Source: Chromatiales bacterium (GTDB lineage Bacteria > Pseudomonadota > Gammaproteobacteria > Thiohalomonadales > Thiohalomonadaceae). From it: DNA of 64,000 bases. Each line of letters starts with the position of its first letter. Within the stretch, counting starts at the first letter, position 1. Made by a program: the position numbers and the translations under genes. The stretch is taken from NCBI GenBank assembly GCA_003251535.1, contig QKFD01000024.1, positions 1 to 64,000 on the forward strand. The letters run 5' to 3'. Positions 20,024-50,782 of this stretch are shown piece by piece. The notes beneath the pieces are model-generated. The model worked only from the letters and a program-made list of their open reading frames with translations, did no database searches and was not told where the DNA came from.

Positions 20024-20100
20024 CGGGGTGTAGCTCAGCCTGGTAGAGCACCGTCTTCGGGAGGCGGGTGTCGCAGGTTCAAATCCTGTCTCCCCGACCA
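20024..20100 (+). tRNA. tRNA-Pro (anticodon CGG)
   Basis: A 77-nt cloverleaf with encoded CCA. The anticodon stem is CCGTC/GGCGG around TTCGGGA, giving anticodon CGG, and the T loop is TTCAAAT. The acceptor stem has one U-U opposition (positions 6 and 67). It starts 10 bp after ispB and is followed by a terminator, so it may be processed from an ispB transcript. Confidence 0.95.
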
Positions 20101-20110
20101 ATCATCAGAA

Positions 20111-20138
20111 AAGGGCGCCCCTCAAGGCGCCCTTTTTC
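20111..20138 (+). terminator. Intrinsic terminator after tRNA-Pro
   Basis: AAGGGCGCC pairs with GGCGCCCTT around a six-base loop and is followed by a T-rich tract. Confidence 0.9.
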
Positions 20139-20259
20139 TTTTCTATCCCCGCCCCACCCCCGCGACTCCGGTATCATCACCCAAGGCGGAGTGGTTCAAG
20201 CCCCTCCCGCCACCGCCGATACAATAGCTACCGGAAACCAGAGATCACGGGAGAGCGAC

Positions 20260-20748
20260 ATGCGCTTATTGGTTGCGATAGTCCTCGCTTCACTGCTGAG
20301 CGGCTGCCTAACCTACGTCGATCCCAATCCTCCCCCACAGCTGCTCAAGGCCGTGGGCTATGGCGCTGTCAGTGATGACCTCAGCCAATCTCCAGCCCAA
20401 CGCCGTCTGCTGGGGATGAGGGCGGCCAAGTTAGACGCCTACCGTAATCTGGCGGAACAGGTCTACGGACTCCAGGTGACCGGACAGAGCACGGTATCTG
20501 ACGTCATGGTGCGCAACGACCGCTTCCACGCCCTGGTCGATACCTATCTGCGCGGCGCCCGGGTGGTGACCACCACGGCCGTGGATGAGGCGACCTACGA
20601 GGTGATAGTGGAGTTGGAGCTATCCCCCGACTTCTACGACTGTGTGCACTACCCCAACCGCTGTACCGCACCCGCCTACCAACCCGCCCGCACCTGCAAC
20701 GGTTGCGACAGCAACTTCAGCGCCCCTGATGTCCAATACTCACCATGA
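20260..20748 (+). CDS. flgP: LPP20-family outer membrane lipoprotein, FlgP-like
   Basis: 162 residues. The signal peptide ends in the lipobox LLSGC, so the mature protein starts with a lipidated Cys. The segment QRRLLGMRAAKLDAYRNLAEQVYG is the typical LPP20/FlgP motif, followed by VDTYLRGARVV. The C-terminus adds five Cys (CVH, RCT, RTCNGC), which is unusual. FlgP is part of the outer-membrane disk around the flagellar basal body in Vibrio and Campylobacter. The ATG has GGGAGAG upstream. The stop overlaps the start of flgT (ATGA), which supports the FlgP reading. Confidence 0.75.
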   Translation: MRLLVAIVLASLLSGCLTYVDPNPPPQLLKAVGYGAVSDDLSQSPAQRRLLGMRAAKLDAYRNLAEQVYGLQVTGQSTVSDVMVRNDRFHALVDTYLRGARVVTTTAVDEATYEVIVELELSPDFYDCVHYPNRCTAPAYQPARTCNGCDSNFSAPDVQYSP

Positions 20749-21887
20749 ACGCCCGCTACGCCCTACCCGTGCTCCTACTGATCTGCGGCCTGGCGCAGGG
20801 GGCGGATAACTATGTGGGCACCGCCGCCATCGATGCGGAGATCGCCCAGGCGCGACAAGCGGCCCTGGCCGATGCCGAGGCCCAGGCAGCAGAGCAGGAG
20901 GGGATGCAGATCCGCTCTGATACCACCCAAGAGGGCGATCAGATCACCCTCCACACCGGCCCCACCCCCCGCCTGAGGGTGATCGAAGAGTGGCGTGATG
21001 GCGATCTCTACCACGTACGGGCCGAGCGGGATGGGGCTAACGGTGGCTGCGGCCCCCAATACCGCAAACGGATCGCCGCCACCGCCTTTCCCCTCCTCCA
21101 TCCGGATCAGGTCTATAGCAACGGGATCCACGGTTTCGAAGTGGGGATCCCCCATGAACTGCTCCACCGCCTGGCGGCCAGTGGCAACTTCCTTAGCCGC
21201 GGGGTGGAGGCGATCACCCTCTACGACGCCAACGCCCTCGCACCAGAGGGGATCAGCCAGGGGAGTTACGGCCGCTCACGGCTCCTAGAGCACGCCGATC
21301 GGGTGGGGGCCGATCTCATCCTCTCCGGGGTAGTGCGGGACCTGGGTCTGGAGGTATCCCGTTTTCAGCTCCCCTACGTAGGTCGCATCGGTAGCTCCGA
21401 CCGGCGGGTGGAGATCGATCTCTTTATCCATGATGGCCATACCGGGGCGCTGCTGCTGCGCCACCACTACGCCGAAGAGGCGTCAGGTGAGGTGATGCTA
21501 GATCGCCAAATCCCATTTGCCAGTGCCGCCTTCTACCGCACCGACCTCGGCCACAGCTTCGATGCCATCTTCGACCGCGCCGTCCAAGAGGTGCAGGAGC
21601 GGCTGCACTGCCTCCCCTTCACCGCCCGAGTCCTGCGTGTCAGCGGCGACGAGGTGGTGATCGATGCCGGCGCCGATACCCGTATCCAGGTGGGCGATGA
21701 GCTGATTGCCCACGCCACCCGCCGCGATCAGCTGTTCGACAGCGGTGCCCGCAGCCGTGGCCCGGAGCGGGAGCCGCAGGGCTCGGTGCAGGTGGTGGAT
21801 GTGCAGGCCGACTACTCGGTGGCACAGCTAAATGGCGCCACGGCCCTAAACCGACTCCAAGCGGGCGATCTGGTCTCCACCCGCTAA
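20745..21887 (+). CDS. flgT: Flagellar assembly protein FlgT-like
   Basis: 380 residues with a signal peptide ending GLAQGA. An N-terminal domain contains the ALADAEAQAAEQEG segment and a Cys near position 100; a middle TolB-like part (LLEHADRVGADLILSGVVRDL) and a C-terminal SH3-like part (RVLRVSGDEVVIDAGADTRIQVGDELIAH) follow. This three-domain order matches Vibrio FlgT, which forms the H ring around the flagellar basal body. Translation is coupled to flgP by a 4-bp overlap. Its 3' end overlaps the convergent methyltransferase gene by 42 bp. No other flagellar genes are in the window. Confidence 0.75.
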   Translation: MNARYALPVLLLICGLAQGADNYVGTAAIDAEIAQARQAALADAEAQAAEQEGMQIRSDTTQEGDQITLHTGPTPRLRVIEEWRDGDLYHVRAERDGANGGCGPQYRKRIAATAFPLLHPDQVYSNGIHGFEVGIPHELLHRLAASGNFLSRGVEAITLYDANALAPEGISQGSYGRSRLLEHADRVGADLILSGVVRDLGLEVSRFQLPYVGRIGSSDRRVEIDLFIHDGHTGALLLRHHYAEEASGEVMLDRQIPFASAAFYRTDLGHSFDAIFDRAVQEVQERLHCLPFTARVLRVSGDEVVIDAGADTRIQVGDELIAHATRRDQLFDSGARSRGPEREPQGSVQVVDVQADYSVAQLNGATALNRLQAGDLVSTR

Positions 21888-22580
21888 CCCCGCCTCTGCC
21901 AGACGGCAGAGGCGATAGATGAAGTGCCACTCCAGCATCCGCCGGCGCCTTGCCACCATCTCTAGCCGCAGACCAGAGGCGGTGGCGAGGCGGTGGATCT
22001 CAGCGAGGGCACACTCCTCCGACAAGATCATCACCACCTCCGGTAGCCGCCCTGCCGCCGCTAGTTGTGGGAACAGGGCGCGGAAATAGTCGAAGTGGGC
22101 GCCGCAGAACCAGGCCCGCTCCGCCGGGGAGAGGGGATCACGCGGATAGTAGGGGGGGTTGATCACCACGAGATCAAACTCAGCCGGGTCAAGTTCGGCG
22201 AAGAGATCCGACTGGACTGTGCGCAGCCTCAAGCCATTGGCGGCGGCGTTGGCGGCGGCGTTGGCCAGGGCCGCCGGATTGATATCGGAGGCGGTGGCGT
22301 GGGCGCCTTTGCCAGCCAGTAGCAGGGCCACCAGGCCGGTGCCACACCCCAACTCCAACACCGCTTGGCCGGCCACCTGCCGTGGACGGAGGTAGTCGAG
22401 CAGGATACGGGTGCTGAGGGTGAGGCCAGGGGGAAAGACGCCGGGGGCCACCTGGATGCGCAGCGTCCCGTAGCGATAGGGGCGGGGGCGCAGGTGGTAA
22501 CGCCGCACCCAAGGGATGAGGATCGGCTCCAAGGCCCGCTTTAAAACGCGCCGCGCCAGCAGCCGCAACCTATTCGGCAC
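21846..22580 (-). CDS. Class I methyltransferase with NPPY motif
   Basis: 244 residues. The SAM-binding motif is VLELGCGTGLVALLLAGKG, the acidic residue is in ASDINPAAL and the catalytic-type motif is NPPYYP, as in HemK/PrmC-like and related N-methyltransferases. The basic N-terminus (RRVLKRALEPILIPWVRRYHLRPRPYR) may touch nucleic acid or membrane. GTG start at 22580 overlapping the upstream radical SAM gene by 11 bp, so it is the last gene of that operon. The substrate could be a protein Gln, a nucleotide or the product of the cluster. Confidence 0.75.
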   Translation of the reverse strand: MPNRLRLLARRVLKRALEPILIPWVRRYHLRPRPYRYGTLRIQVAPGVFPPGLTLSTRILLDYLRPRQVAGQAVLELGCGTGLVALLLAGKGAHATASDINPAALANAAANAAANGLRLRTVQSDLFAELDPAEFDLVVINPPYYPRDPLSPAERAWFCGAHFDYFRALFPQLAAAGRLPEVVMILSEECALAEIHRLATASGLRLEMVARRRRMLEWHFIYRLCRLAEAGLAGGDQIARLESV

Positions 22581-24087
22581 GGAACCCCTCCTGCTCCGGT
22601 CGACGGTAGCGCCACCAACGCAGCAGGGCCTTCAGCTCCAGAGGATAACGGTAGGCCCGCATTCGGTAGCGGGGCGTCGCCAGCAGCCGCAGCAGACGCC
22701 GCTGCCAGGGTCGCAGGGTGAAGTCGGAGACACTGGGGGCGTAGGCGTTGAGCACCGTCTCGAAGTTGCGCACCCGATCCACCATGGCCGGCGTCAACCA
22801 GGGGGTGAGCGGATTACGCCGCAGATCGAACTGCTCCCAGCGGGGGGAGAGCCAGTCGTCGAGGGTGCGGGGAAAGTGGAAACCGTCCGCCTCGATCTGG
22901 CGATAGAGTTCGGAACCCTCGGTGGGTACCGGGCTATAGAGATAGACGATGATCTCGGTCTGCGGATTGATCGCCTTAATCTCCTCAATGAAGCGGATGT
23001 CCCGCTCTATCTGCCCCGCCACCGCCGCCGCATTGGGCCCCGGCAGGCCGAGCACAAAGGAGTACTCCGGGATGATATCGAACCGTCCAAGGCGGGCGCA
23101 GAGGCGTTTGATCTGCTCACCGCTTTGGGTACCGCCTTTATTCATCTGCCGCAACACCGCCTCGTCGCCGCTCTCGGCGCCGAGAAAGATCATGCGGCAG
23201 CCCGCCGCCCGCATCTGCTCCAGCGTGGCGTCGGCATAGCGATCCAGGGTATCGATCCGCCCCTCGCCCCACCAGATCAGCCCAGCCCCCCGCAACAGTG
23301 CCGATAGCTCCGCGACCCGCCGTTCAGAGACGAAGAAATTGTTGTCGTGGAACTCCACCGCATCCACCCCCCAACGCCCCTTCAGCTCCAGTAGATTGGC
23401 GGCGATACGCGCCGCACTCTCACCGCGCCAGCGGGCGTTGTAGATGGGCACCACACCGCAGAAGGCGCAGCTAAAGGGGCAACCGACACTGGAGTGGTAG
23501 GCCTGGGTACGGCGACCGAGAAAGGTACGACCGAGGTAGCCCTCCATGGGGTAGTGCTGGTGCAGCCACTCATAGGGCAGCGGTGGCAGTGCATCCTGAT
23601 CCAGCAGCGGCGCCGTGGGGGTGGTGACGGGCTCACCATCCTCCCCCTGCCAGGCGAGATTGGGGATAGCGGTCAGGGGGGAGCCGCTCGCCAAGGCGTC
23701 GAGCAGTGCGGGAAAGGCCGCGTCGCCCGGGCCACAGACGACGAAATCGACATAGGGGGCGCTCAAGGTGGCGGCCAGCTGGTTGGAGGGGAAGTAACCT
23801 CCCCAGATGGTCCGCACCGCGGGAAACGCCTGGCGCACTCGGCGTGTCACCGGGATTGCCTGTTTCAGCTGCGGTCCCGGCATGACGGTGCAGCCGAAGT
23901 AGCCATACTCGCCACTGGCCAGGTAGGCGGCCAGCTTGGGCCAGGGATCCCCCTCCCGGTTACCATCCACCAGCGCCACCTCGCGCCGGCCCTGCACCGA
24001 GGCGGCGATCTGTAGGATGGAGAGAGGGACCCGACACTTACCCTCGGCACTGCGCGGATTGAACAGCAACACCTTACTCATCGACAT
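22570..24087 (-). CDS. B12-binding-type radical SAM enzyme
   Basis: About 505 residues. The N-terminal 150 residues resemble a cobalamin-binding Rossmann domain (KVLLFNPRS, ALVDGN, IWGGYFPS, FVVCGPGD) but the classical DXHXXG cobalt-ligand motif was not found. The radical SAM core carries CPFSCAFC (SSVGCPFSCAFCGVVP), then VEFHDNNFF and a GAESGDEAVL motif. Such enzymes often methylate unreactive carbons or rearrange skeletons. It starts at ATG 24087, two bases before the glycosyltransferase stop, or at ATG 24081. The longer frame upstream is a shadow of that glycosyltransferase. The C-terminus is strongly basic. Confidence 0.85.
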   Translation of the reverse strand: MSMSKVLLFNPRSAEGKCRVPLSILQIAASVQGRREVALVDGNREGDPWPKLAAYLASGEYGYFGCTVMPGPQLKQAIPVTRRVRQAFPAVRTIWGGYFPSNQLAATLSAPYVDFVVCGPGDAAFPALLDALASGSPLTAIPNLAWQGEDGEPVTTPTAPLLDQDALPPLPYEWLHQHYPMEGYLGRTFLGRRTQAYHSSVGCPFSCAFCGVVPIYNARWRGESAARIAANLLELKGRWGVDAVEFHDNNFFVSERRVAELSALLRGAGLIWWGEGRIDTLDRYADATLEQMRAAGCRMIFLGAESGDEAVLRQMNKGGTQSGEQIKRLCARLGRFDIIPEYSFVLGLPGPNAAAVAGQIERDIRFIEEIKAINPQTEIIVYLYSPVPTEGSELYRQIEADGFHFPRTLDDWLSPRWEQFDLRRNPLTPWLTPAMVDRVRNFETVLNAYAPSVSDFTLRPWQRRLLRLLATPRYRMRAYRYPLELKALLRWWRYRRPEQEGFRAE

Positions 24088-24088
24088 C

Positions 24089-25168
24089 TCACACCCCACC
24101 CCAACCACTGCGCCCACTGGCACCATAGAGCTGGCGGTAAGCGGCCACCGTAGCGGCGAGAGGAAAGCGGGGTGCCACCTCTGCCGCTGGCCTGGCGAGC
24201 AGTCGGCCAACGGCGGCGGCCATGGCCCGCGGCTCCTCTGCCAACTCCCAGCCAGGTCCCACCGCAGCGATGCCAACCGCCCTTGATACCACCCCCAATC
24301 CCAACGCCTGCGCCTCGGCCATGGCCAAGCCAAATGACTCAAAACGCGCGGGATGGAGCAGCACCCGGGCGCGTCGCATCAACGCAATCACCTGCTCCCG
24401 CGGCACTCCACCGGCAAAGGTGACCGCCGCGCTGATCCCCAACTGCTCGGCGCGCCGCTCCAGGAGTGGTCGCTGCGGCCCCTCCCCCACCAGTAGGCAG
24501 CGGAGTTGGGGGTGGGCCGGCAGCAGCTCGGCCACCACCTCCAGAAATAGCGCGTACTCCTTCACGGCGCTGAGGGCGCCAACCCCCAAGAGATCGATCT
24601 CCGGCTCCGTTACCGAGTGCCGCCCCTCCGCCTCTGGAACGCCCCATGGGATGAGTTGATCGGCATGTCGGCCGTAGCTACGGGCGAACCACTCATCCTG
24701 AAAGGCGGAGAGCGCCACCACCCGACTACGGCGGCGATCAATCCGCCCCAACCAGGGCTGACGACGGCACACCTCCTGCCCCATCAGGGTGAGTAGGTGG
24801 GGAATAGCCAACCGCCCCGCCCACCACTCACCGAGACGGCTGCACTCCCCCAACCAGAAGCTGTGGATCAACGTGATGGGTTGCCGCCGCTGGAGTGCCC
24901 TCAGCCGCTGAACGGCCCGCAGCCAAGCCAGCCAACGCCACGGTTGGCGCCGATTGGCGCCACCGCAGGGGAGCACCTCCAGGCCATGCCAACGGTAGGG
25001 GGTGGTGCGGTAGGGGTAGTGGAGAGGGAGCAGCGAGATCCGCCAGCCCGGCTGCTGCTGCGCCAGGGCGCGCACATAGAGCTGTAGTGCCGGGATACAG
25101 GCGGTGTCCGCCTCAGCGGCGGGAAAACCGGGGGTGATGAGGAGGAGGTGGTGTGGCCCATCAGCCAT
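24089..25168 (-). CDS. Glycosyltransferase family 4 (GT-B fold)
   Basis: About 359 residues. The N-terminal half has LLLITPGFPAAEADT; the C-terminal half has LLGVGALSAVKEYALFLEVV, LLVGEGPQRPLLE and the nucleotide-sugar motif FESFGLAMAEAQALG with the EX7E pattern. It transfers a sugar from a nucleotide donor to an unknown acceptor in the cytoplasm. ATG at 25168 overlaps the upstream membrane protein gene by 8 bp, indicating one operon. Confidence 0.85.
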   Translation of the reverse strand: MADGPHHLLLITPGFPAAEADTACIPALQLYVRALAQQQPGWRISLLPLHYPYRTTPYRWHGLEVLPCGGANRRQPWRWLAWLRAVQRLRALQRRQPITLIHSFWLGECSRLGEWWAGRLAIPHLLTLMGQEVCRRQPWLGRIDRRRSRVVALSAFQDEWFARSYGRHADQLIPWGVPEAEGRHSVTEPEIDLLGVGALSAVKEYALFLEVVAELLPAHPQLRCLLVGEGPQRPLLERRAEQLGISAAVTFAGGVPREQVIALMRRARVLLHPARFESFGLAMAEAQALGLGVVSRAVGIAAVGPGWELAEEPRAMAAAVGRLLARPAAEVAPRFPLAATVAAYRQLYGASGRSGWGGV

Positions 25169-26606
25169 CGTGCCGCACCCCGGTGATACGGTAGAGGGTC
25201 CAACCATCCCCGTGCTGGAACAGCGTCTCCAGCTGGTAGCCCCGCTGCAAGCGATCCCAGTTCTGCATCAGCCGATGGCCCTGCCACTGCCGGGCGAAGC
25301 GGGGGGCGTTGAACAGCACATAGGCCCCCGTGGGATAGTGCTCGATGGGCGCCAGCCAGAGATCGATCACCGGCTCAGGCACGCCGCGTGCCCGCAGCGC
25401 CATGGTGACATCGAAGGTGTAGAGCGGGGCCGCCGGATAGCTCGCCACCTCTGCCGCCAAGGCCCGCTCCCAACGGTTGCGCTCCAGCAGCGGTACCATC
25501 TCGCGGGCGGTCAACCCCAGCTGAAACAGCAGCGCCGTCGCCACCGCCCCGAGGCGTGCCCAGCGCGGCAGGAGATACCACAGACGGAGGGCGGCCGGCA
25601 GCAGCAGCAACAGCACCAGCGGCACCGCCAGGATCAAAAAGCGCTGGTTTTGAAGCGGGATCCCGGCGATGAAGGCGAGGTAGAGCAGCAGCCCGGCCAG
25701 CAGCAGACGGGCCAGTGGATCGGCCAGATCCCCCCGGCGCCACCCCAGCAGCAGTAGCGGCCCACCCAGTAGCAGAGCGGGGTGGTAGAGCGGGTAGAGG
25801 GCGTAGAGCAGATTGGGCAGACGATAGCTCTGGTAACCATCGCCGGTGACGAAGGCCCGTTCAAACCAGTGGTGGAGCGACCAGAGGGTGAGCGAGTAGT
25901 GGTGGAACAGCTCCCCAGCCGCCCCCTGTTTCAATAGCAGATGGGGTATCCAGGTGACGGCGACGATGGCCAGCACCGCCAGCAGCCAGCCGCTACGACG
26001 CGCCCGCCCCAACTGCCACCCCAAGTAGAGGCCAGCGGGCAGCAGCGGTAACAAGGTGGCGTAGCGGGTGTTCATGGCCAGACCGGCACAGAGGGCGAAT
26101 AGCGCCACCCAACGCCCCTGCTGTGCTTCGCGGTAGCGGGCCAGGCAGAGCAGTGCTGCCATCATCCAGCCGAGCGCCAACAGATCGGACATCACCAGCA
26201 CATCGGCACGTAGCAGCAGCGGCGCCAGCGCCAAGCCGAGTAGCAGGTAGAGATCGAGCACCGCCCGCTCCACCTGCGGCTGGAGGAGAAGGGCGAGCTG
26301 GCGCGTGGCGTAGAGGGTGGCCACCAACGCCAGCGCCGAGATCCCCTGCATGGCCAAGGCGCCCTCCCACCCCGCTAGCGATAGCAGGGCGCCCGTGAGG
26401 CCATACCCCACCGGCCAGGCGTGCCAACCGGGATCGGCCCCCCCTAACCACCATTGGCGCAGGGCCGTGGCGTAGCGCAGATATTCGAAACTATCCTGGC
26501 CATATAGCCCATCAAAGCCGATCCCCCAGCGCACCCAGCCCCACGCCAGCAGCGGCACTAGCAGCAGCAGAGGGGTGCGCCAACGGCCAACCCAAGACCA
26601 CGCCAT
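25161..26606 (-). CDS. Multi-pass GT-C/ArnT-like membrane glycosyltransferase (putative)
   Basis: 481 residues with about ten hydrophobic helices. The first luminal loop holds DGLYGQDSFEYLRYATALRQWW, where the acidic QDSFEY resembles the catalytic Asp of PMT/GT39-type enzymes. AMNTRYATLLPL and a short soluble C-terminal domain follow. Such proteins use polyprenyl-phosphate sugars on the outer face of the membrane. The ATG at 26606 has AAGGGG just before it, five bases after the stop of the preceding gene. Confidence 0.7.
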   Translation of the reverse strand: MAWSWVGRWRTPLLLLVPLLAWGWVRWGIGFDGLYGQDSFEYLRYATALRQWWLGGADPGWHAWPVGYGLTGALLSLAGWEGALAMQGISALALVATLYATRQLALLLQPQVERAVLDLYLLLGLALAPLLLRADVLVMSDLLALGWMMAALLCLARYREAQQGRWVALFALCAGLAMNTRYATLLPLLPAGLYLGWQLGRARRSGWLLAVLAIVAVTWIPHLLLKQGAAGELFHHYSLTLWSLHHWFERAFVTGDGYQSYRLPNLLYALYPLYHPALLLGGPLLLLGWRRGDLADPLARLLLAGLLLYLAFIAGIPLQNQRFLILAVPLVLLLLLPAALRLWYLLPRWARLGAVATALLFQLGLTAREMVPLLERNRWERALAAEVASYPAAPLYTFDVTMALRARGVPEPVIDLWLAPIEHYPTGAYVLFNAPRFARQWQGHRLMQNWDRLQRGYQLETLFQHGDGWTLYRITGVRHDG

Positions 26607-26611
26607 CCCCT

Positions 26612-29020
26612 TCACGCCTGCCGCGCCATCCCATAGCGCTCCAAGCGCAGCAACCGCTGCCACTCCCACCCCGCCCGCAAGAGATGGAGCGCCCCCCCGG
26701 CAGCAAGCCGCAGATCCCCCAGCCGCCAGAGACTCGGCTGCTGCAACCGGGCCCGCAGCCGGCGGGCGGCGGTGCGGGCGCGGAAGCGGTTATGGACATA
26801 GCGGTGCAGGGCGCGGTAGTAGTCGGTGCGGTAGGTACCGTTGAACATCATGGCGAGATCACTGGAGTCAGACCAATGGGTCTTGCCACCGAGCGCCTCC
26901 CGCACTTGATCGAAGAAGGGGGTACCGGGCAGCGGATAGGAGACCGAGATGCCAAGATCGTCTGGCATCAGCTCAAACAGCATGGCCAAGGTCTGATCGA
27001 TATCCTCCCGCAGCTCGCCTAGGTAACCGAACTGGAGGAAGAGGGCAACCTTTATCCCGTGGGCCCGTAGCCGATGGGTGGCGGCGTGGATCTGCTCCAC
27101 GCGGATCCCCTTATTCATGGCATCGAGGATCTTCTGGGAGCCCGACTCCGCCCCCAGCCAGACCAGCTCCGCCCCAGAGGCCGCCAGCGCCTCCACCACC
27201 CCCTCCTCCAGCAGCAGATCGGCCCGCGACTGGATGGTGTAGCGGAAGCGCAGCCCCTGCGCCGCCACCAGTTGGGCAAAGCGGGGGAGCCAACCCGGTT
27301 TGAGACCAAAGATATCGTCACAGATCCAGAAGTGCTGCGGACCGTAGTGCTCCAGCAGCAGGGCGATCTCCGCCACCACCGCCTCCGGGGAGCGGGCGTT
27401 GTAGCGCCGTCCCCAGAGTGGCTTGGCGCACCAGCTGCATTGGTAGGGGCAACCGCGGGTGGTGGCGAGGTTGAGGGAGAAGTAGCCGTGGTGCTGGAGC
27501 CAGATGGCGCGGTAGGCGGTCAGATCCACCAGGTCCCAGGCCGGTGGCGGTAGGGCATCGAGATCGCGCAGTACCGGCCGCTTGGCGTTGACCGAGATCC
27601 CCCCGGCCTCGTTGCGGTAGGCCACCCCCACCACCTCGGCCATCGGCCGCCCCTGACGCAGCCGCTCCAGCAGCTCCCCAAGGGTCTCCTCCCCCTCCCC
27701 CAGGATCACCGCATCGGCCCCTTGGTCGAGGTAGATCTGCGGGTGGTCGGTGGCATCGGAGCTACAGACAATGACCCGGCAGCCGCGCTCCCGCGCCCGC
27801 TGGATCATGCGCAGCGCCGCGGCGCGCATGGTGGAGAGGCACATCTTGGTGAGGTAGTTAAAACCGTCGTCGTAGAACACCACGATATCGGGCCGCTCCC
27901 GCTCCAACACCGGCACGATCTCCAGATCGCTCTCCGCCAGGTTGGTATCAAACAGCGCCACCGGGTAGCCCTGCTCCCGCGCCGCCGCCGCGGCGTAGAG
28001 GGTACCGAGTGGGGGGTAGGGGCGCGCCATCGCCCACTGCTTGGCATCTAGGCGGTAGAAATAGGAGTGGCTGAAGAGCAGCCTCGGCATCCCCTCCCCT
28101 GCCCTGATCCCGCTGGCCTGCTCCAAGCCGCGGACCCGGGTCGCATACTGGGCCAGAATGCGGTTTTGCCAATCGCTAAAGTGGCTCTTGACGATACCGG
28201 CCCGCACCCGCACCGCGCCGCACCCCTCCAGCTCACGACAGCGCCGATCTCGACGCCGCCAGCGCCGCCAGGTGAGACACATCAGCCCGTGGTTCAACAG
28301 ATCCCCCCCGCGGCCAGCCAAGCCCCCCTCCACTACCCGCGCCCACCAGGGGCGTCTTGGAACGGAGAGGAGATCCTGACGGACGGGTGGATGGTTGGGC
28401 AGAAACGCCTGCACCCAGGGGTTGGCCGCCAGCAGCGCCGCGTGGGCCTGGGGATCACACACCGGCAAGAGCGTAGCCAGCTCCATGGCGGTGAAGAGAT
28501 TGCGCTCTAAGGAGCCAAACTGCTCGCTATCGACATAGTAGTTAGGGCAGAGATCGGCCCCTCGCTGGGCAGGCAGCTTGGTGTAGAGATAGACCACACT
28601 ACGGGCGAGCCAAGCCCGCCGCGGCGGGGTGGTGATGAAGAGATCGAGATCCGACTGTGCCGTCATCACCTGTTTAGAGATGGAGCCGGAGAGGCAGACT
28701 CCACGCACAAACGGCAGCCGCGCCACCCGCTGCGCCCACCCCACGGCGACAGGGAGCAGCCGCTCCGCCGCGGCGTTGTGCTCGCGCCGCGCGGCCACCA
28801 CCTGGGCCACCTCCTGTAGGGCGTAGAACCCCTCAAAAGACTCCGCCAGGGCGTTGGCCACACACCACTCCAGCGCCACCTCCACCGCCTCCAGCGAGGC
28901 CTGCGCATCGTCGCAGAAACAGCGCACCTCGGTGCTGGCGAGGGGGTAGTGGAAGATATCGAAATAGGCCAAGACCCGTAGCACAAGGCCGGTCAGCGGA
29001 GGGGGCATAGCGGGTAACAT
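26612..29020 (-). CDS. Fusion: winged-helix/nucleotidyltransferase domain plus B12-type radical SAM enzyme
   Basis: 802 residues. Residues about 10-70 look like a winged helix (LVLRVLAYFDIFHYPL). At 111-128 the motif SGSISKQVMTAQSDLDLFI has the GS...DXD pattern of the nucleotidyltransferase fold. From about 311 a complete second protein begins: MPRLLFSHSYF, KPYPPLG-like RPYPPLGTLY, a B12-binding-type Rossmann domain (to about 455) with VILGEGEETL, then the radical SAM motif CPYQCSWC (524-531), a GAESGSQKILDAM motif and a basic tail. No stop or frameshift separates the halves. The reaction is unknown; NTase and radical SAM activities would work on one pathway. It begins a five-gene run down to 21846. 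Confidence 0.85.
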   Translation of the reverse strand: MLPAMPPPLTGLVLRVLAYFDIFHYPLASTEVRCFCDDAQASLEAVEVALEWCVANALAESFEGFYALQEVAQVVAARREHNAAAERLLPVAVGWAQRVARLPFVRGVCLSGSISKQVMTAQSDLDLFITTPPRRAWLARSVVYLYTKLPAQRGADLCPNYYVDSEQFGSLERNLFTAMELATLLPVCDPQAHAALLAANPWVQAFLPNHPPVRQDLLSVPRRPWWARVVEGGLAGRGGDLLNHGLMCLTWRRWRRRDRRCRELEGCGAVRVRAGIVKSHFSDWQNRILAQYATRVRGLEQASGIRAGEGMPRLLFSHSYFYRLDAKQWAMARPYPPLGTLYAAAAAREQGYPVALFDTNLAESDLEIVPVLERERPDIVVFYDDGFNYLTKMCLSTMRAAALRMIQRARERGCRVIVCSSDATDHPQIYLDQGADAVILGEGEETLGELLERLRQGRPMAEVVGVAYRNEAGGISVNAKRPVLRDLDALPPPAWDLVDLTAYRAIWLQHHGYFSLNLATTRGCPYQCSWCAKPLWGRRYNARSPEAVVAEIALLLEHYGPQHFWICDDIFGLKPGWLPRFAQLVAAQGLRFRYTIQSRADLLLEEGVVEALAASGAELVWLGAESGSQKILDAMNKGIRVEQIHAATHRLRAHGIKVALFLQFGYLGELREDIDQTLAMLFELMPDDLGISVSYPLPGTPFFDQVREALGGKTHWSDSSDLAMMFNGTYRTDYYRALHRYVHNRFRARTAARRLRARLQQPSLWRLGDLRLAAGGALHLLRAGWEWQRLLRLERYGMARQA

Positions 29021-29175
29021 CAGCTCTCCGAACGACGAGTGGTGACACAGTGCCGGAGCTAAGCAGGATTGGACGCTCCGGGGCTATCCAGGGTGAGATA
29101 CAACCATTCCGCCGGGCCAAGATAACTTAGCGGGTGTAATGAGGAAAAGGGACAAACGCCTCCCTTACCGCCCGC

Positions 29176-30579
29176 TTACGACCGCCACCGCGCCCACCAC
29201 ATGCCCCAACGCCCCCGCCAGGCGCTCAGCTTGCAGCGCAGGCCGCGTAAGCTGCGGTGCCCCCGCTGTTGATAAAGCCGATGCCACGCCATCTCCCCCT
29301 GGAGCCAACGGAGGGCGTGCTGGTAGTAGGCCTGGCTGTAGGTGCGGACAAAGCCCTGGTCCCGCTCTGTACCACTGGCCCAGTTGTGCCCCTCCAGGAG
29401 CCCGGCACCCTGAAGTTGCTCGTGCAGCGGGGTGCCGGTGATGGGGTAGGTCAGGGTCACGGTCCAGTGGTCTGGGGCCGTGGCCTTGAGGTGGTGCAGT
29501 GTCGCCTCGATATCCGCCTCCCGCTCCCCCGGATAGCCCAGCATCACAAAGGTACCCACCTCGATCCCCGCGCGCCGGGCGGCTGCCATCATCGCCTGCA
29601 CCTGGGCCACCGTCACCCGCCGCTCCATGGCGTCGAGGATAGCCTGAGAGCCGCTCTCGGCGCCGATCCAGACCCGGTAGCAGCCCGACCGCTTGAGAAG
29701 GGCCACCACCGGCTCATCGAGCCGATCGGCGCGGGTGATGCACTCATAGGCGATGACCAGTCCGCGCCGCTCCAACTCATCCGCAAACGCCGCCAACCAG
29801 CCCCAATGGATGGTAAATACATCGTCCACAAACCAGATGCTGTCGGGGGCGTAACGCCGTTGTAGCGCCTCCAGCTCGGCCACCACCGCCGTGGGGGAGC
29901 GGCGCCGATAGCTACGGCCGTAGACGGCGCGGCTGCACCAGCGACAGCTATAGGGGCAGCCGCGCATGGTGCTCACGGTCATGGCACTCATGCCGTGGTG
30001 CTGGCGCCAGAGGGTGGCGTAGCGCTCGATATCGATCCGCTCGCGGGCCGGCTCCGGCAGGCTATCCAGGGGGCGGATCGCCTCCCGCTCGGCGGTAATG
30101 ACCGGCCCCCCATCCACCCCGCGGTAGGCCAACCCGGCGACGGTGGCGAGATCACCGCCCCGTTTTAGGGTCGTCACCAGCTCCAGCAGGGTCTGCTCCC
30201 CCTCGCCGAGTACCAATACATCGGCGCCATGTTGTAGCCACTGGTCGATGTGGTAACGCACCTCTGGCCCCCCCAGCACGATACGGGTAGCCCGCAGCGC
30301 CGGCTGGGAGCGGACAAAGGCGATGAGGGCGAGGAGATTGGGCCGAGTCAGTAGATTGGCATAGATGCCGAGTAGCGGGGGACGCAGATCTAGTAGCCGG
30401 CGGTGCAGCGCCGCCATGGAGGAGAAGGTGGTATCGAACAGCTCGTGATCGATCCCATGCTGCTCTAAGTAGGCGGAGAGGTAGAGCAACCCGAGTGGCG
30501 GGTAGGGCTTCATGATCCGCTGCTCAACGGGATCATCCGCCAGAAAGTAGCCGTGGGTCAGCAGCAGCTCAGCCATCAT
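29176..30579 (-). CDS. B12-binding-type radical SAM enzyme
   Basis: About 467 residues. The start MMAELLLTHGYFLADDPVEQ and KPYPPLGLLYLSAYLEQHG begin a B12-binding-type domain with VLGGPEVRY and VLVLGEGEQTLLE. The cluster motif is CPYSCRWC, followed by WFVDDVFTIHWGW and GAESGSQAILDAM. The sequence parallels the C-terminal half of the fusion protein at 26612-29020, so the two are probably paralogues with related reactions. The ATG at 30579 shares its T with the TGA of the methyltransferase gene before it, so they are coupled. Confidence 0.88.
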   Translation of the reverse strand: MMAELLLTHGYFLADDPVEQRIMKPYPPLGLLYLSAYLEQHGIDHELFDTTFSSMAALHRRLLDLRPPLLGIYANLLTRPNLLALIAFVRSQPALRATRIVLGGPEVRYHIDQWLQHGADVLVLGEGEQTLLELVTTLKRGGDLATVAGLAYRGVDGGPVITAEREAIRPLDSLPEPARERIDIERYATLWRQHHGMSAMTVSTMRGCPYSCRWCSRAVYGRSYRRRSPTAVVAELEALQRRYAPDSIWFVDDVFTIHWGWLAAFADELERRGLVIAYECITRADRLDEPVVALLKRSGCYRVWIGAESGSQAILDAMERRVTVAQVQAMMAAARRAGIEVGTFVMLGYPGEREADIEATLHHLKATAPDHWTVTLTYPITGTPLHEQLQGAGLLEGHNWASGTERDQGFVRTYSQAYYQHALRWLQGEMAWHRLYQQRGHRSLRGLRCKLSAWRGRWGMWWARWRS

Positions 30580-31382
30580 CAACCACTCAGGGTGAGCTGG
30601 ATCAGATAGTGGTCTGACCAGTCAGCCAAGATGGCCTGCCCCCCCAACAGCTGCTCTAACCCCTGCCACAGCCGCAGTGCTGCCGGCTGCGCCAGGCGGT
30701 GACCATGGAAGTAAGAGGGGGGCAGGGCGATGCCGATGGGGTGGCGGCGGCGCAACTCAAAACGTGCTGCCAGGGCACGGGCCAGCCAAGCGGAGTCGTG
30801 GTACCAGGTGCGCACCTGCGCCCCCTCCCCCAGCTGCGCCGCTAGCGGCCCTTGATCGCGCCGGAACGGCCGCCGCTGTTGGCCGCGCAGAGTGAAGTAG
30901 AGGCCCTCCCAGAGACAGTGGCGCGGCATGATGACCGCCACCATGCTCCCCCCCGGCCGCAACAGCTGCGGCAGCACCTCTAGTGACCAGGCCACCAGCG
31001 CCTCGCCCGCGATGCAGTTGAGGCCACCGAAGTTAGAGAATACGAGGTCAAACGGCTCCGGGAAGGTGGTGGGGTCGATGGCCAGGGTATCGATGCAGGT
31101 GGTGCGCACCCGTTCAGCAAGGCCGGACCGGATCACCCGCTCCTGGGTCTTCGCCACCATCGCCGAGGAGATATCGGTCGCCTGCACGGTGTGGCCCTGT
31201 TGGGCCAGCCAGAGCGCATCGACACCGGTGCCACAGTTAAGCTCCAACAGCGAACGGGGGCCAGCCCCCGCCAACAGCCTGGTCAATGAGCGCCACACCC
31301 GCGCCCGCTGGGCGCGACCAATGGGGGTATCGGTGAAGCTGGCGTCGTAGTTTGCGGCAACGGCGTCGAAGGCGGCGCTCAT
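30579..31382 (-). CDS. Class I SAM-dependent methyltransferase
   Basis: 267 residues. It begins FDAVAANYDASFTDTPIGRAQR, as in UbiE/BioC-like enzymes, with motif I LLELNCGTGVDALWLAQQG and VQATDISSAMV. FSNFGGLNCI and LRPGGSMVAVIMP follow. It methylates a small molecule or lipid-linked intermediate of unknown kind. It precedes and is coupled to the radical SAM gene at 29176-30579. Confidence 0.85.
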   Translation of the reverse strand: MSAAFDAVAANYDASFTDTPIGRAQRARVWRSLTRLLAGAGPRSLLELNCGTGVDALWLAQQGHTVQATDISSAMVAKTQERVIRSGLAERVRTTCIDTLAIDPTTFPEPFDLVFSNFGGLNCIAGEALVAWSLEVLPQLLRPGGSMVAVIMPRHCLWEGLYFTLRGQQRRPFRRDQGPLAAQLGEGAQVRTWYHDSAWLARALAARFELRRRHPIGIALPPSYFHGHRLAQPAALRLWQGLEQLLGGQAILADWSDHYLIQLTLSG

Positions 31383-31496
31383 GGGGTAGTAGCGGGCGAG
31401 AGCTGGCCGGCGAGTGGCGATGGCTTACAATGCCCTACCCCTCTGCCCGCCGTCCAGTCGAGACCCCCTCTATGGCTCACCGCCCCTATCGCTGCC

Positions 31497-32582
31497 ATGT
31501 CACTGGCTGATCGGCTGCGCCGCGCCAATGAACGCTGGCTGCCGGGGCGCCTGCTGGCTGGGCCGCAGTGGCTGGTGCTGGGGGTCAATAACTTCTGCAA
31601 TCTGCGCTGCCGCATGTGCGATGTCGGCACGGGCCACGACACCACCAATTTTGGCGCCAATCTCACCGGCGCCCACAACCGCTCGCTGCCCATCGAGCTA
31701 TTTACCCGCATCGTGGATCAGCTGGCGACCCACTACCCTCACACCAAACTGGGCTACGCCTATACCGAGCCGCTCGCCTGGGCGCCCCTCGGCCACTCCC
31801 TGCAACTGGCCCGCGAGCGGGGGATCACCACCACCATTACCACTAACGGCCTGCTGTTGGCGCGCCGGGCAGCGGAGATCGTGGCGGGGGGTTGCAGCCA
31901 GCTGTTTGTCTCCCTCGACGGCCCAGCCGCCATCCACGACCAGATCCGCGGCCGCCAGGGCAGTTATGCCCGCGCCGTGGAGGGGATCGAGCGGGTGGCG
32001 GCGCTGGCGGGGGCGCCACCCATTAGTGTGGTCTGCGCCATCACACCCTGGAACGTCGGCCAGCTGGAGGCGCTGCTGGAGGCGCTCACACCGCTGCCGC
32101 TCACCACGGTGGTGATCGCCCATAACAACTTCATCAGTGACACCATGGCCGCGCAGCACAACGGGCACTACGGTGATCGCTACCCGGTGACCGCCTCCAA
32201 TGTCCACGCCACCGATCTCGATGCCATTGATCCCCAGCAGTTGGCGACGGAGCTGACGGCGCTGCGCCGCCGACCCTGGCCCTTCCAGCTCACGCTGCAA
32301 CCGGAGTGCAGCGGTGTCGCCGAGCTGACCCGCTACTACCGGCAGCCGGAGCAGGCCATCGGCAGCGGCTGCGGGGATCTGTTCCGCATCCTGATGATCG
32401 ATCCCGACGGCGAGGCGATCCCCGCCCACGGCCGCTGCTTCCGCCTGCCCATCGGCAATATCAGCACACAGACGCTCCCGGCCCTCTGGAACGCCGCCCC
32501 CCTCGCCGCCCTGCGCCGGGAGCTGGTGGCGGCGGGCGGCCTACTACCGGCCTGCCACCGCTGCTGTGGCGGAGTGGGGTGA
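31497..32582 (+). CDS. Radical SAM protein with SPASM-like C-terminus
   Basis: 361 residues. The cluster motif is CNLRCRMC (34-41), followed by TEPLAWAPLG, a TTNGLLL strand and FVSLDG, as in AstB/MoaA-like enzymes. The C-terminal quarter has SGCGDLF, GRCFRLPIGNI and ACHRCCGG, which resemble the extra iron-sulfur ligands of SPASM/twitch domains. It is the only plus-strand gene in the cluster and ends two bases before the convergent GNAT gene. SPASM enzymes often modify peptides or sugars; no precursor peptide was recognised beside it. Confidence 0.85.
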   Translation: MSLADRLRRANERWLPGRLLAGPQWLVLGVNNFCNLRCRMCDVGTGHDTTNFGANLTGAHNRSLPIELFTRIVDQLATHYPHTKLGYAYTEPLAWAPLGHSLQLARERGITTTITTNGLLLARRAAEIVAGGCSQLFVSLDGPAAIHDQIRGRQGSYARAVEGIERVAALAGAPPISVVCAITPWNVGQLEALLEALTPLPLTTVVIAHNNFISDTMAAQHNGHYGDRYPVTASNVHATDLDAIDPQQLATELTALRRRPWPFQLTLQPECSGVAELTRYYRQPEQAIGSGCGDLFRILMIDPDGEAIPAHGRCFRLPIGNISTQTLPALWNAAPLAALRRELVAAGGLLPACHRCCGGVG

Positions 32583-32584
32583 GG

Positions 32585-33484
32585 CTAGATATTTTCATAG
32601 TCGGCATAGAGCAGCTGGAGCGTGTCGAACGGTAGCTCCGGCCCGCGCAGGGTGCGAACACCAATCCCCCAACCGGGGATGGCCGACCCCAAGAGGGTGG
32701 TGAGGGCGGCGTGGAGTGGATCACCCGTCTGCACCATAAAGCGGAGGGTGCGTGATCCACTGCGCTGGCCCAGCGCCACCAGCTCCGCCAAACGCTCTAC
32801 CAACGGCACCGGCGTATCGCCCCGGAGGGCGGCGACCCGCAGGATATCACCGGGGATCAGCGCAACCCCACCAGCCAAAGTGAGGTGGTGGATGGTCGGC
32901 TTGGCGCGCCAGTAGTCGGCATCCCTGAGCGGCCCCCAGCCGGTGGTGTCACTCACCCACGCCCTCCCATCCCGCGGTAGACGCCGCCAGAGCAGCGGCG
33001 CCACCAGGCGCCGACGCCAGTGACGGCGCACGCCCGCCAGCGGGGCCAAGGGGATCTCAAAGCAGTCCATGCGGCCGATGTTGCGCATCGCCAACCGATT
33101 TTGTGAAATGGGACCGGAGACATCACTGGAAAAACCAAAGAGAAAATGACAGCCTAGCGCCTCTGCCGCCGCCAGACTGGCGTCACAAACCAGTTTGAAG
33201 GCACGGGTGTGGCGGTATGCGGGCAGGGCCACCCAATCGCCCAACTGCCCCCCCAATAGCAGCTCGCCAGCCAGCTCAAAGCGGTAGGGAAAGAGACTGG
33301 CGCAGGCCACCGGCAGCGAGCCGTGGTAGGCCAAAAAGCCGTGGTTGCGACCACCAATGGCACTCTGGCGATACTTGCGGCGCCACCACCCCACCCTGGC
33401 CCGGCTCCCCATACCGAGGCGCATCAGCTGCGCCAAATCCGCCGCCCGCCGCTCATCCAGGGGCTCGATGTGATAGCGACTCAC
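32585..33484 (-). CDS. GNAT-like N-acyltransferase
   Basis: 299 residues. The early part (RYHIEPLDERRAADLAQLM, HGFLAYHGSLPVACASLFPYRF, LGDWVALPAYRHTRAFKLVCDASLAAAEALGCHFLFGF) has the layout of the GNAT acetyl-CoA fold as found in polysaccharide-locus acyltransferases. The C-terminal half is a second domain of similar size. It probably N-acylates an amino sugar or amine. Its GTG start overlaps the TGA of the deacetylase gene (GTGA), so both are translated together. Confidence 0.65.
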   Translation of the reverse strand: MSRYHIEPLDERRAADLAQLMRLGMGSRARVGWWRRKYRQSAIGGRNHGFLAYHGSLPVACASLFPYRFELAGELLLGGQLGDWVALPAYRHTRAFKLVCDASLAAAEALGCHFLFGFSSDVSGPISQNRLAMRNIGRMDCFEIPLAPLAGVRRHWRRRLVAPLLWRRLPRDGRAWVSDTTGWGPLRDADYWRAKPTIHHLTLAGGVALIPGDILRVAALRGDTPVPLVERLAELVALGQRSGSRTLRFMVQTGDPLHAALTTLLGSAIPGWGIGVRTLRGPELPFDTLQLLYADYENI

Positions 33485-34455
33485 CGGCGGCCATATCCCC
33501 CGGCAGCGATGGCATTGAGTTGGCCGCGACTCGTTAGATAGGGGTGGATACCGAGCCGAACGATGGTTGAATCTCGCAGGCCCCCCTCTCCGGCGTTCTC
33601 ATCCACCAGCGCCTGGAGCCGGTAGCCCGTGGCGGCAGCCATCCGCAGCAGAGCGGGCGAGTAGGCCCCCCTCGGGTAGGCCCACTGGGTCACCTCCCGC
33701 CCACTTACCAGCTCTAGCCAGCGTTTGGCATTGCGCAGCTCCCAACGGGCATCGGCGCTGGAGAGGGCTGGCAGATCGATGTGGGTAACGCCGTGCGCCC
33801 CCAGCTCAATGAGGGGGTGGTGGGCGAGCCGCTGTAGCTCCTCCTCGTTGAGCAGCCGCCAATAGGGCTCCAGCTCTGGCCGCTCAGCCAGCGGCGCCTC
33901 CATAGGCAGCGCCTGCGCCAACTCGCAGAGGAACAGATTATCCCGCTCCCGACAGAGCTGTTTGAGCGCCACGCCATCCCCCTCCCGCCGCCACTGTCGA
34001 TGCCGATCTTGGACAAACCGCTCCTCCCCCAGGTGCAGCGGTCCCGGCTGTAACTGGGCCGCTAGGTCGATGCGATCGGCCCATAGCAGCGGCTCGCCCC
34101 CCCCACCCGGTAGCACCCGAGCGGTGGTGATGAAGAAGGTGGCGGGGACCTCGGCCGCCTCCAGGACCGGCAGGGCGTGGTGCAGCAGGTTGCAGTAGCC
34201 GTCGTCGAAGGTGAGGGCGACCCGGAACCCCTCCCCCTCCGTCAGGAGATCGGCCAGTGGTACAAAGCGGACCTGGGGCTGGGCCGCCAGCAGGGCGATA
34301 TCACCCGCCAACCGCTGGGCGGAGACGAAGCGACTATTGAAACGGAGGTTGGCGCCAAACGCCTGCTCACCGGTCACGCCGTGATAGAGCAGCGCACAAC
34401 GCCCCTGCGACGGCAGCGGGCGCGGAGGTGACGTGAGGGCGTGGGTTAGACGCAT
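33481..34455 (-). CDS. Polysaccharide deacetylase (NodB fold)
   Basis: 324 residues. NodB motifs are visible: LTFDDGY (motif 1), ELGAHGVTHIDL (motif 2 with His pair), WAYPRGAYSP and ATGYRLQALVDEN. These enzymes remove N-acetyl groups from GlcNAc-type sugars using a metal. The deacetylase and the following GNAT gene could exchange one acyl group for another on the same amino sugar. ATG at 34455 was chosen; a TTG at 34488 with AGGT upstream is possible. Confidence 0.88.
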   Translation of the reverse strand: MRLTHALTSPPRPLPSQGRCALLYHGVTGEQAFGANLRFNSRFVSAQRLAGDIALLAAQPQVRFVPLADLLTEGEGFRVALTFDDGYCNLLHHALPVLEAAEVPATFFITTARVLPGGGGEPLLWADRIDLAAQLQPGPLHLGEERFVQDRHRQWRREGDGVALKQLCRERDNLFLCELAQALPMEAPLAERPELEPYWRLLNEEELQRLAHHPLIELGAHGVTHIDLPALSSADARWELRNAKRWLELVSGREVTQWAYPRGAYSPALLRMAAATGYRLQALVDENAGEGGLRDSTIVRLGIHPYLTSRGQLNAIAAGGYGRR

Positions 34456-34546
34456 CCGACCAATTTGCAACCAGGTGGGTAGAGTCAAATAGGGCTACCT
34501 GAAAGAGGGGCTGGTGAGATGAGCCGTAGACCGCCCCAACCAGAGG

Positions 34547-35344
34547 CTACTCCTCCCCTCGCCCTTGATAGCGTGCCTTGCACCAGGCCACGTCGATCTC
34601 CGGCTGGCCGTCACGCAGGGCGATCCAGTCCAACAGCGGCCCCTGCTTGTTGATCAAGGCGGCAAATAGATTGCCCTGCCGCGGTAGGACCCCAAAGACC
34701 AGCGGCGCCAATCCCTGGAGCAGCAGCGCGAGAAGATACTTCAACTTGCTACGCGCCATCTTCAGCCGCTCAATAGGGAGCAGGTAGCCGTAAAAAAAGC
34801 GGAGGTTTGGCCGGTGAGAGGCGTCAAAACAGGCCACCGTCTTCTCCAACTCCCGCTCGGTCCAGCGATAGACAAAGTTGGGGATGGGCGAGTTGCGCAC
34901 CCCACCGTAGCGGTAGCTGTTCGCCACCACCGCCTCGATCTCGTAGGCATCGGCAAAGCCGAGGCGGGTGGCAAGCCGCATCACCAGGCTGTCACGGCTC
35001 TCGAACATCAACACCCCCTTACGCGCTACCCGTAACATCTCCAGTAGCGCCCGGTGGGGCGAGGCGCAGTGGTGTAGGCCGGCGTGGGTCACCACCAGAT
35101 CAAAGCTCTCGTCCTCAAAGGTGAGGTTCTCCGCATCCTGGTAAGACCACTCAAACGGGGCATAGAGCGCCGCGTTCATGCGATCATCGATATTGGAGAT
35201 CACCACATTGCTGAAACCCAGTTCAGCCCATACCCCCTTGTCGAGGGTACCGCCACAGACCACTAGCACCCTATCTTGCAGAGTGATACCACCGGACTGC
35301 ACGATGCTAGAGACCGTCTTGGAGTAGAAACTGTTTGTTGTCAT
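34547..35344 (-). CDS. SAM-dependent methyltransferase (UbiE-like)
   Basis: 265 residues starting MTTNSFYSKTVSSIVQSGGI. The SAM motif is degenerate (VLVVCGGTLDKGVWAELGF) but SNIDDRMN, YQDAENLTFEDESFDLVVTHAGLHHCASPHRALLEMLRVARKGVLMFES is clearly of the methyltransferase 11 type. The ATG at 35344 was used because the longer frame (to 35434) is poor in family-like sequence. It closes the cluster on the minus strand, 92 bp upstream of the deacetylase gene. Confidence 0.8.
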   Translation of the reverse strand: MTTNSFYSKTVSSIVQSGGITLQDRVLVVCGGTLDKGVWAELGFSNVVISNIDDRMNAALYAPFEWSYQDAENLTFEDESFDLVVTHAGLHHCASPHRALLEMLRVARKGVLMFESRDSLVMRLATRLGFADAYEIEAVVANSYRYGGVRNSPIPNFVYRWTERELEKTVACFDASHRPNLRFFYGYLLPIERLKMARSKLKYLLALLLQGLAPLVFGVLPRQGNLFAALINKQGPLLDWIALRDGQPEIDVAWCKARYQGRGEE

Positions 35345-40200: not shown

Positions 40201-40857
40201 CAGTGTTCGCACCACGGCATCGCACACCATCTCCGTCTGCCCATGCCAGAGATAGATCAGCCCTTGCCGAAAGGTAGTGATCGATTCGGCGACGAAGGTA
40301 CTTCCCAAGCCGGCTAACAGCGCCTCCCGACTCGGGGCCCCATGTAACCCCAGTGCGGCTCGATTCACATCCACCACCTGGATGAGAGCAACACACTGCT
40401 GTAGCACCTCAGGGTAGCGCGCAAAATAGTCTTCGATATCGCTCACCCCCTCGCCCCGCAACTTATCGAACAGCGCCTTAACCTGGGAGAAATCCTCCTC
40501 CCAAATGGAGATCGGTGAGTTCTCAAAGGTCATTCGGTAACGCGCCTGACTCTGCTGCAACTGCTCGGTCACCGCGCGCTGTTCGCGGAAAATAGGGGTG
40601 ATACGACTGATCCCCCACGCCATCAGGAGAGAGATGGCTAAGGCCATCAGTTCGACCAGCCAGTGGGGTTGCTCTGCAAAGTCGGAGCTGATGAGTCGCT
40701 CCAAACTGAAAAGACGGCGTAGCGCCATCAGTGCAATGGCGGCGGCCACCAGACCCCACGCCAAATAGGCACCCGTGATCTTGATCAGGCGCAGGGCGAG
40801 AAAGGCGGCCACAAACTGCACGGCCAAAGAGGCCACCAACACCGTGATGAGCAGCAT
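37273..40857 (-). CDS. Hybrid sensor histidine kinase (PAS-GAF-PAS-PAS-HisKA-HATPase-REC)
   Basis: 1194 residues. Two or three N-terminal membrane helices (1-85) are followed by PAS (about 105-260), GAF (about 275-425) and two PAS/PAC domains (about 430-690). The kinase core has the H box [22 protein letters not shown], the N box [15 protein letters not shown] and [10 protein letters not shown] receiver domain follows with [21 protein letters not shown] and IRKPYQ, then a 90-residue helical tail. The GAF part suggests a small ligand or light signal, which cannot be identified. AAGGCG precedes the ATG. It is followed by the HD-GYP regulator. Confidence 0.93.
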
Positions 40858-45491: not shown

Positions 45492-45504
45492 GGAAATGGG
45501 CTCC

Positions 45505-46137: not shown

Positions 46138-46149
46138 GGTCTCGCTCCC

Positions 46150-48402: not shown

Positions 48403-48405
48403 TGC

Positions 48406-50780: not shown

Positions 50781-50782
50781 CC

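Follow-up and report, generated by a model that had tools for sequence, protein, structure and literature searches.

The window considered here is a stretch of 64,000 nucleotides from a Chromatiales bacterium, and eleven genes, whose ORFs and start codons were checked, lie between its positions 21846 and 35344. Domain calls follow Pfam gathering scores and subfamily calls follow curated NCBIfam cut-offs. In order of position, the genes are:

21846..22580, minus strand: MT1, a HemK/MTS-type methyltransferase with an NPPY motif (Pfam MTS, 66.1 bits)
22570..24087, minus strand: RS1, a B12-binding-type radical SAM enzyme starting at ATG 24087 (Radical_SAM 46.5 bits, B12-binding 41.9 bits)
24089..25207, minus strand: GT4, a glycosyltransferase of family 4 (Glycos_transf_1, 85.1 bits against a cut-off of 26.4)
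25161..26606, minus strand: GTC, a GT-C-like membrane glycosyltransferase (PMT_2, 22.2 bits where 26.1 is the cut-off)
26612..29020, minus strand: NT-RS2, a single ORF of 802 amino acids, with the nucleotidyltransferase NT at approximately residues 1-310 and a B12-binding-type radical SAM enzyme, RS2, at approximately residues 311-802
29176..30576, minus strand: RS3, a B12-binding-type radical SAM enzyme (Radical_SAM 80.9 bits, B12-binding 50.8 bits)
30579..31382, minus strand: MT2, a class I SAM methyltransferase belonging to the core module (Pfam Methyltransf_25, 47.8 bits)
31497..32582, plus strand: a SPASM radical SAM enzyme (Radical_SAM 63.1 bits, SPASM 26.3 bits)
32585..33484, minus strand: a probable GNAT acyltransferase of 299 amino acids, assigned via a weak homologue
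33481..34488, minus strand: a NodB-type polysaccharide deacetylase (PF01522, Polysacc_deac_1, 77.4 bits)
34547..35344, minus strand: MT3, a class I SAM methyltransferase of 265 amino acids starting at ATG 35344 (Pfam Methyltransf_11, 46.1 bits)

The genes form two minus-strand runs, MT3-NodB-GNAT and MT2-RS3-RS2-GTC-GT4-RS1-MT1, and the SPASM gene is the only one on the plus strand. RS1 and MT1 overlap by 11 bp, GNAT and NodB by 4 bp, and GTC and GT4 by up to ~50 bp, as set by the choice of GT4 start. The spacing is 1-2 bp each for MT2/RS3 and GT4/RS1, 5 bp for GTC/RS2, and 155 bp between RS3 and RS2. An earlier note on this DNA had described closely packed neighbours; the tight spacing holds, although the SPASM gene runs opposite to all others. 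Of the content that it listed, Pfam scores confirm three B12-binding-type radical SAM enzymes, a SPASM enzyme, three methyltransferases, one of the two glycosyltransferases and a NodB deacetylase; the list overlooked the nucleotidyltransferase domain of 26612-29020.

All four radical SAM enzymes score above the gathering score of Radical_SAM (PF04055), and the CxxxCxxC motif is kept in all four families. For B12-binding (PF02310), the N-terminal Rossmann domain that marks cobalamin-binding radical SAM enzymes of the class B type, the scores of RS1, RS2 and RS3 are 41.9, 36.4 and 50.8 bits against a gathering score of 32.1. The NPPY motif of MT1 is conserved among its homologues, and the NodB sequence carries the TFDDG and HxxxH motifs, as VALTFDDG and HGVTH. 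Two labels stand less directly. GTC misses the PMT_2 cut-off itself, but two homologues elsewhere, from loci L021 and L120, clear it. For the GNAT protein itself, Pfam, NCBIfam and PDB give no match; its weak homologue L121:5982-6905 from Roseivirga (21% identity, E 5e-6) does pass the cut-off of Pfam Acetyltransf_9 (PF13527), and on this sequence likeness the product of 32585..33484 is a probable GNAT acyltransferase.

A domain search of the region's proteins found no PKS, NRPS or terpene-cyclase domains, in agreement with the earlier reading that no such core is present. None of the ten proteins scanned, a set that leaves MT3 aside, reaches a curated NCBIfam cut-off. Known equivalogs were also considered and rejected: the window proteins and their Bacteroidota homologues miss the NCBIfam cut-offs for HpnJ, HpnR, BchE, PhpK, AprD4, the ladderane B12 radical SAM enzyme and TIGR04295. 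A scan for sigma-70-like promoters returned none and is uninformative.

A conserved module in Bacteroidota

Homologues of these genes recur across Bacteroidota as abutting runs, NT-RS2-MT2-RS3 and (SPASM-)RS1-MT1. Where both members of a pair are present, they lie within 200 bp of each other in 47 of 56 loci for NT/RS2, 63 of 72 for RS2/MT2, 57 of 62 for MT2/RS3 and 32 of 34 for RS1/MT1; MT2 thus adjoins RS2 and RS3 in most loci. Seven loci have both RS1 and a SPASM homologue (39-46% identical), and in five of them the two are no more than 200 bp apart. RS1 and MT1 are often accompanied by GT4 and sometimes by SPASM or GTC; GT4 homologues lie near the module core in ~20 loci, the closer ones at 29-40% identity. 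The RS1 homologues in Bacteroidota are mostly 54-62% identical to the window protein. With RS3 as the query, named genomes yielded 80 loci at 47-56% identity, nearly all from Bacteroidota, the others being a few Ignavibacteria, one Thermoanaerobaculia-named record and one Rickettsiales-named record.

In addition, 326 Bacteroidota genomes were sampled, the seed genome included. RS1 is found in 15 of them, and eight have a match to the RS3 query (one being the seed genome and one an RS2-type match), all eight with MT2 and RS2 nearby. Some form of the module occurs in 19 genomes, ~6% or about one in 17. In all ten RS3-less loci examined, RS2, MT2 and NT lie within ~10 kb of RS1. This survey of RS3 and RS1 loci argues that the stable core is NT, RS2 and MT2 together with RS1 or RS3, whereas RS3, MT1, SPASM, GT4 and GTC come and go. 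GNAT and NodB are also grouped with the variable parts.

The fullest counterpart is in Roseivirga sp. 727-3Z, where one stretch of ~25 kb holds homologues of NT, RS2, MT2, RS3, GTC, GT4, SPASM, RS1, MT1, GNAT (weak) and NodB, matching 10 of the 11 window genes; MT3 is missing there, and no MT3 homologue is seen in the Bacteroidota loci examined. The NodB homologue of this locus is 33% identical over 310 amino acids, and that of locus L004 30%. Carriers of the module among named strains include Roseivirga seohaensis, Marinoscillum pacificum, Nubsella zeaxanthinifaciens and Foetidibacter luteolus. No published description of the module turned up in the open-access literature searched, which is weak evidence of absence.

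These observations bear on whether the genes are unrelated and have become neighbours by chance, sharing no pathway. MT3, GNAT and NodB are indeed poorly conserved with the rest. However, order and spacing are kept across many distantly related loci, which rules out a chance neighbourhood for the core genes, and RS1 and RS3 are found together in genomes more often than expected (Fisher p 0.002, seed genome excluded). We therefore regard a chance collection as barely credible, since the genes co-occur as a conserved Bacteroidota module. The earlier proposal of one unassigned biosynthetic set is strengthened both by this module and by the failure of all ten scanned proteins to pass an NCBIfam cut-off.

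The spacing also speaks to RiPP maturation, in which the SPASM enzyme would be the one that matures the peptide. RiPP clusters commonly encode SPASM as well as B12 radical SAM enzymes. Both kinds are present in the island, and weak scores against RiPP C-methyltransferase models are seen. Set against this, the core genes abut in Bacteroidota with median gaps near zero, the single larger gap in the window (29021-29175) yields only short, unconvincing ORFs, and neither a protease nor a peptide transporter was seen among the island genes. Maturation of a peptide by this gene set is accordingly very improbable.

Origin of the window copy

The earlier note had suggested looking for conserved co-occurrence in other sulfur-oxidising gammaproteobacteria, and here the outcome is the opposite of the expectation. 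RS3 is found in none of 143 other relatives and RS1 in none of 397 other Pseudomonadota sampled; GNAT and GT4 likewise have no match in the 143 relatives at the thresholds used. Together, these counts argue against vertical inheritance. In turn, the window RS1 and RS3 are nested inside Bacteroidota-dominated trees (that of RS3 being a quick tree), where they sit on long branches (1.1-1.2) adjoining weakly supported forks. The lack of matches in other Pseudomonadota, combined with this nesting, makes it likely that the window set was acquired horizontally. Judged by these sequences, the home of the gene set is Bacteroidota, and the transfer would have run from Bacteroidota to the gammaproteobacterium.

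The GC content of the island is 66%, higher and not lower than that of the flanks (61-63%), which suggests that the transfer was not recent or that the donor was GC-rich; we read the acquisition as one or the other. At E 1e-15, none of 38 other relatives has a match to the FlgT-like flanking gene, and neither an empty site nor a flank sign of insertion was seen. Two further candidates were rejected. A plasmid origin was set aside because the listed tblastn matches of RS1 to plasmids were all class-level, at 23-30%. The Rickettsiales record (L011) is not considered a true carrier: in the trees, RS1 and RS3 alike place it with Cyclobacteriaceae, which we attribute to a binning error.

The nucleotidyltransferase and the radical SAM enzymes

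NT has a conserved GSxSK...DxD region in which G112, S115, K116, D124 and D126 are invariant in 13 sequences. The window protein scores 19.1 bits against Pfam PF01909 (Pol-beta/NTP_transf_2), just under the cut-off of 21, and 10 of the 13 family members match PF01909 at E <= 0.01. In VIA-align, 111-113 residues of the NT model align with ANT(4'), the kanamycin nucleotidyltransferase, at Z 8.6-8.8; Foldseek, given the same model, finds nothing below E 0.001. A winged helix precedes the nucleotidyltransferase fold, and as this part fits DNA-binding folds equally well, a regulatory role of NT is possible.

In Bacteroidota, NT and RS2 are separate, abutting genes with a median gap of 0.5 bp, and no fused copy is present among the Bacteroidota RS2 ORFs. 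Within the window ORF, a Shine-Dalgarno-like AGGGGAGGGG lies just before an ATG at 28090, and this ATG stands at the place where separate RS2 proteins start elsewhere. The NT-RS2 fusion may therefore have arisen by loss of a stop codon, and RS2 may also still be produced alone from ATG 28090. The adjacency of the two, fused here and abutting elsewhere, suggests that NT and RS2 act in succession.

The AlphaFold model of RS1 is nearest AprD4, followed by MgmA, TsrM and OxsB. As AprD4, MgmA, TsrM, TokK and OxsB score alike against it, deoxygenation, methylation and rearrangement are indistinguishable on this basis, and the C-methylation or rearrangement steps put forward in the earlier note are a fair guess from enzyme class. 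RS1-3 may use cobalamin, which a cobalamin-biosynthesis gene of the host scoring above its cut-off makes possible; the likeness to AprD4 would leave room for a B12-independent working. The class features of cobalamin-binding domains in these enzymes have been reviewed (PMC13331322).

The likeness of the RS1 model to AprD4, an enzyme of an aminoglycoside pathway, raises the question of whether NT, the radical SAM enzymes, GT4, NodB and GNAT make a diffusible small metabolite, aminoglycoside-like or phosphonate-like, instead of a cell-surface glycan. The fold of NT fits aminoglycoside nucleotidyltransferases, and RS3 scores 139 bits against the PhpK P-methyltransferase subfamily (cut-off 600). 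Aminoglycoside pathways typically combine a glycosyltransferase with a deacetylase, as the island does. On the other hand, the window proteins searched do not match 2-deoxystreptamine or phosphonate core enzymes, and many of the Bacteroidota loci lie amid GT2, GT9, GT87 and other surface-glycan genes. A product of this kind is unlikely, though it deserves more weight than any other alternative discussed here.

RS1-3 score up to 138 bits with the models of HpnJ, HpnR and the B12 radical SAM enzyme associated with ladderanes. Together with the glycosyltransferases of the island, these scores might instead suggest hopanoid- or ladderane-like modification of a membrane lipid followed by glycosylation. 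They fall well short of the equivalog cut-offs, however, which lie at 360-650 bits. As many models of B12 radical SAM enzymes give similar scores, the likeness is one of class, and the island is without a lipid-backbone gene. Lipid modification is thus quite unlikely.

Proposed pathway and comparison with known systems

Many Bacteroidota module loci contain glycan-type genes, including GT2, GT9, GT87, GT-C, Bac_transf, MBOAT, GDSL/SGNH, an ABC exporter and a carbamoyltransferase. Their presence may point to surface glycan assembly, and the modified surface glycan or glycolipid that the earlier note had envisaged is consistent with these neighbours. The glycan side of the window is reduced to GT4, GTC, NodB and GNAT; by Pfam families, no flippase, polymerase or ABC export gene is recognised in the island. 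Taken together, we think it reasonably probable that the region holds a form of the conserved Bacteroidota module gained by horizontal transfer, and that it makes an unusual modified sugar for a surface glycan or glycolipid.

In the working that we propose, the substrate, the product, the types and order of reactions, the nucleotidylation and the glycan destination are all what we infer from the gene set. The core would comprise NT, MT2, MT1, RS2 and RS1, often with RS3 as a third B12-binding-type radical SAM enzyme. NT would couple a nucleotide, as NMP, to a sugar-like precursor through a hydroxyl or phosphate group, after which RS2, RS3 and RS1 would alter unactivated carbons by radicals, through deoxygenation, C-methylation or ring rearrangement. 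Methylation of O or N atoms would fall to MT2 and MT1, a planar N being the more likely target of MT1 given its NPPY motif. The modified unit would pass by way of GT4 and GT-C to a glycan, either lipid-linked or on the cell surface, from which NodB would strip N-acetyl groups, with GNAT re-acylating the amine. Tentatively, and at clearly less than even confidence, we go further and suggest a new and widespread Bacteroidota pathway in which a small, nucleotidylated sugar-like precursor is remodelled by a pair of methyltransferases and two or three distinct radical SAM enzymes of the B12 type into a type of monosaccharide new to surface glycans, and which was passed to the gammaproteobacterium as a compact island.

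NT and its two or three accompanying B12-type radical SAM enzymes apparently form a set without an assigned pathway, though some version of it occurs in about one in 17 sampled Bacteroidota genomes. If a modified sugar is made, radical carbon chemistry would join the known means of surface-glycan diversification, and the carriers among named strains make the role of the module directly testable.

Of the characterized systems, AprD4, the radical SAM 1,2-diol dehydratase of apramycin biosynthesis, whose substrate is an aminosugar, is one of the closest comparisons. It is the best phmmer PDB match of both RS1 (E 4e-11) and RS3 (E 4e-20) and the best fold match of the RS1 model (TM 0.62-0.68). However, the identity is 18%, the NCBIfam AprD4 scores are 54-87 bits against a cut-off of 500, and we know of no NT-MT2-RS2 set in the apramycin pathway. 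MgmA, TsrM, TokK, CysS and OxsB share the layout of a B12-binding Rossmann domain with a radical SAM domain, as well as CxxxCxxC, and match the fold over most of the RS1 model, but at 14-19% identity and with no common subfamily. HpnJ, HpnR, BchE and the ladderane B12 radical SAM enzyme have the same domain layout and are among the top-scoring NCBIfam models, yet the scores do not exceed 144 bits, where the cut-offs are 360-650.

For NT, the kanamycin/aminoglycoside enzyme ANT(4') and the MNT-type nucleotidyltransferases have the GSxSK..DxD region and the NT-domain fold in common with it, whereas NT carries an extra N-terminal winged helix and is ~12-14% identical to them. Finally, in comparison with the Wzx/Wzy or ABC-type surface-polysaccharide loci of Bacteroidota, the window island is without a recognisable flippase, polymerase or exporter, but many of the module loci share GT2, GT9, GT87, Bac_transf, MBOAT and an ABC exporter with them.

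Genes flanking the island

The radical SAM island is flanked in the window by the following features:

20024-21887, plus strand: tRNA-Pro, a short ORF and a FlgT-like protein, immediately flanking the island
36255-40857, minus strand: a large ORF resembling hybrid sensor kinases, plus a response regulator that carries an HD-GYP-type domain

The short ORF has a lipoprotein-like start, and the FlgT-like protein shows Pfam matches to FlgT_M and FlgT_C. As no match to the FlgT-like gene was found among 38 other relatives at an E value of 1e-15, this gene too may be recent in this genome.

Relatives of the module in other genomes

A different, second SPASM radical SAM protein is located near the B12-binding-type enzymes RS1 and RS2 in the Bacteroidota loci L145 (12053-12982), L150, L152 and L153. 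These proteins are 22-24% identical to the SPASM enzyme of the window, and the one in L145 scores over the Pfam SPASM cut-off. The second protein may substitute for the window-type enzyme in those loci.

An amidohydrolase gene adjoins a methyltransferase-like gene at L152:7226-9134 and in comparable loci, and each of these families is seen again close to the conserved module in seven loci. Two carrier records, L025 (a Thermoanaerobaculia MAG) and L011 (a Rickettsiales MAG), are both placed within Bacteroidota in the tree of RS3, the third B12-binding-type enzyme, and may reflect binning errors rather than transfers.

Other genes of the window

Elsewhere, the window encodes:

4560-7880, minus strand: a protein of 1106 aa in which a PTPS_related membrane domain and TPR are recognised
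44586-49692, minus strand: four adjacent genes resembling heterodisulfide reductase (Hdr) subunits
49863-52888, plus strand: a CbbQ/NorQ-type AAA ATPase, then a VWA-domain protein, adjoining the Hdr-like genes

The Hdr-like set comprises two HdrA-like proteins, one HdrC-like and one HdrB-like protein, all scoring below the methanogen-type cut-offs, and might function in sulfur metabolism or in electron transfer.
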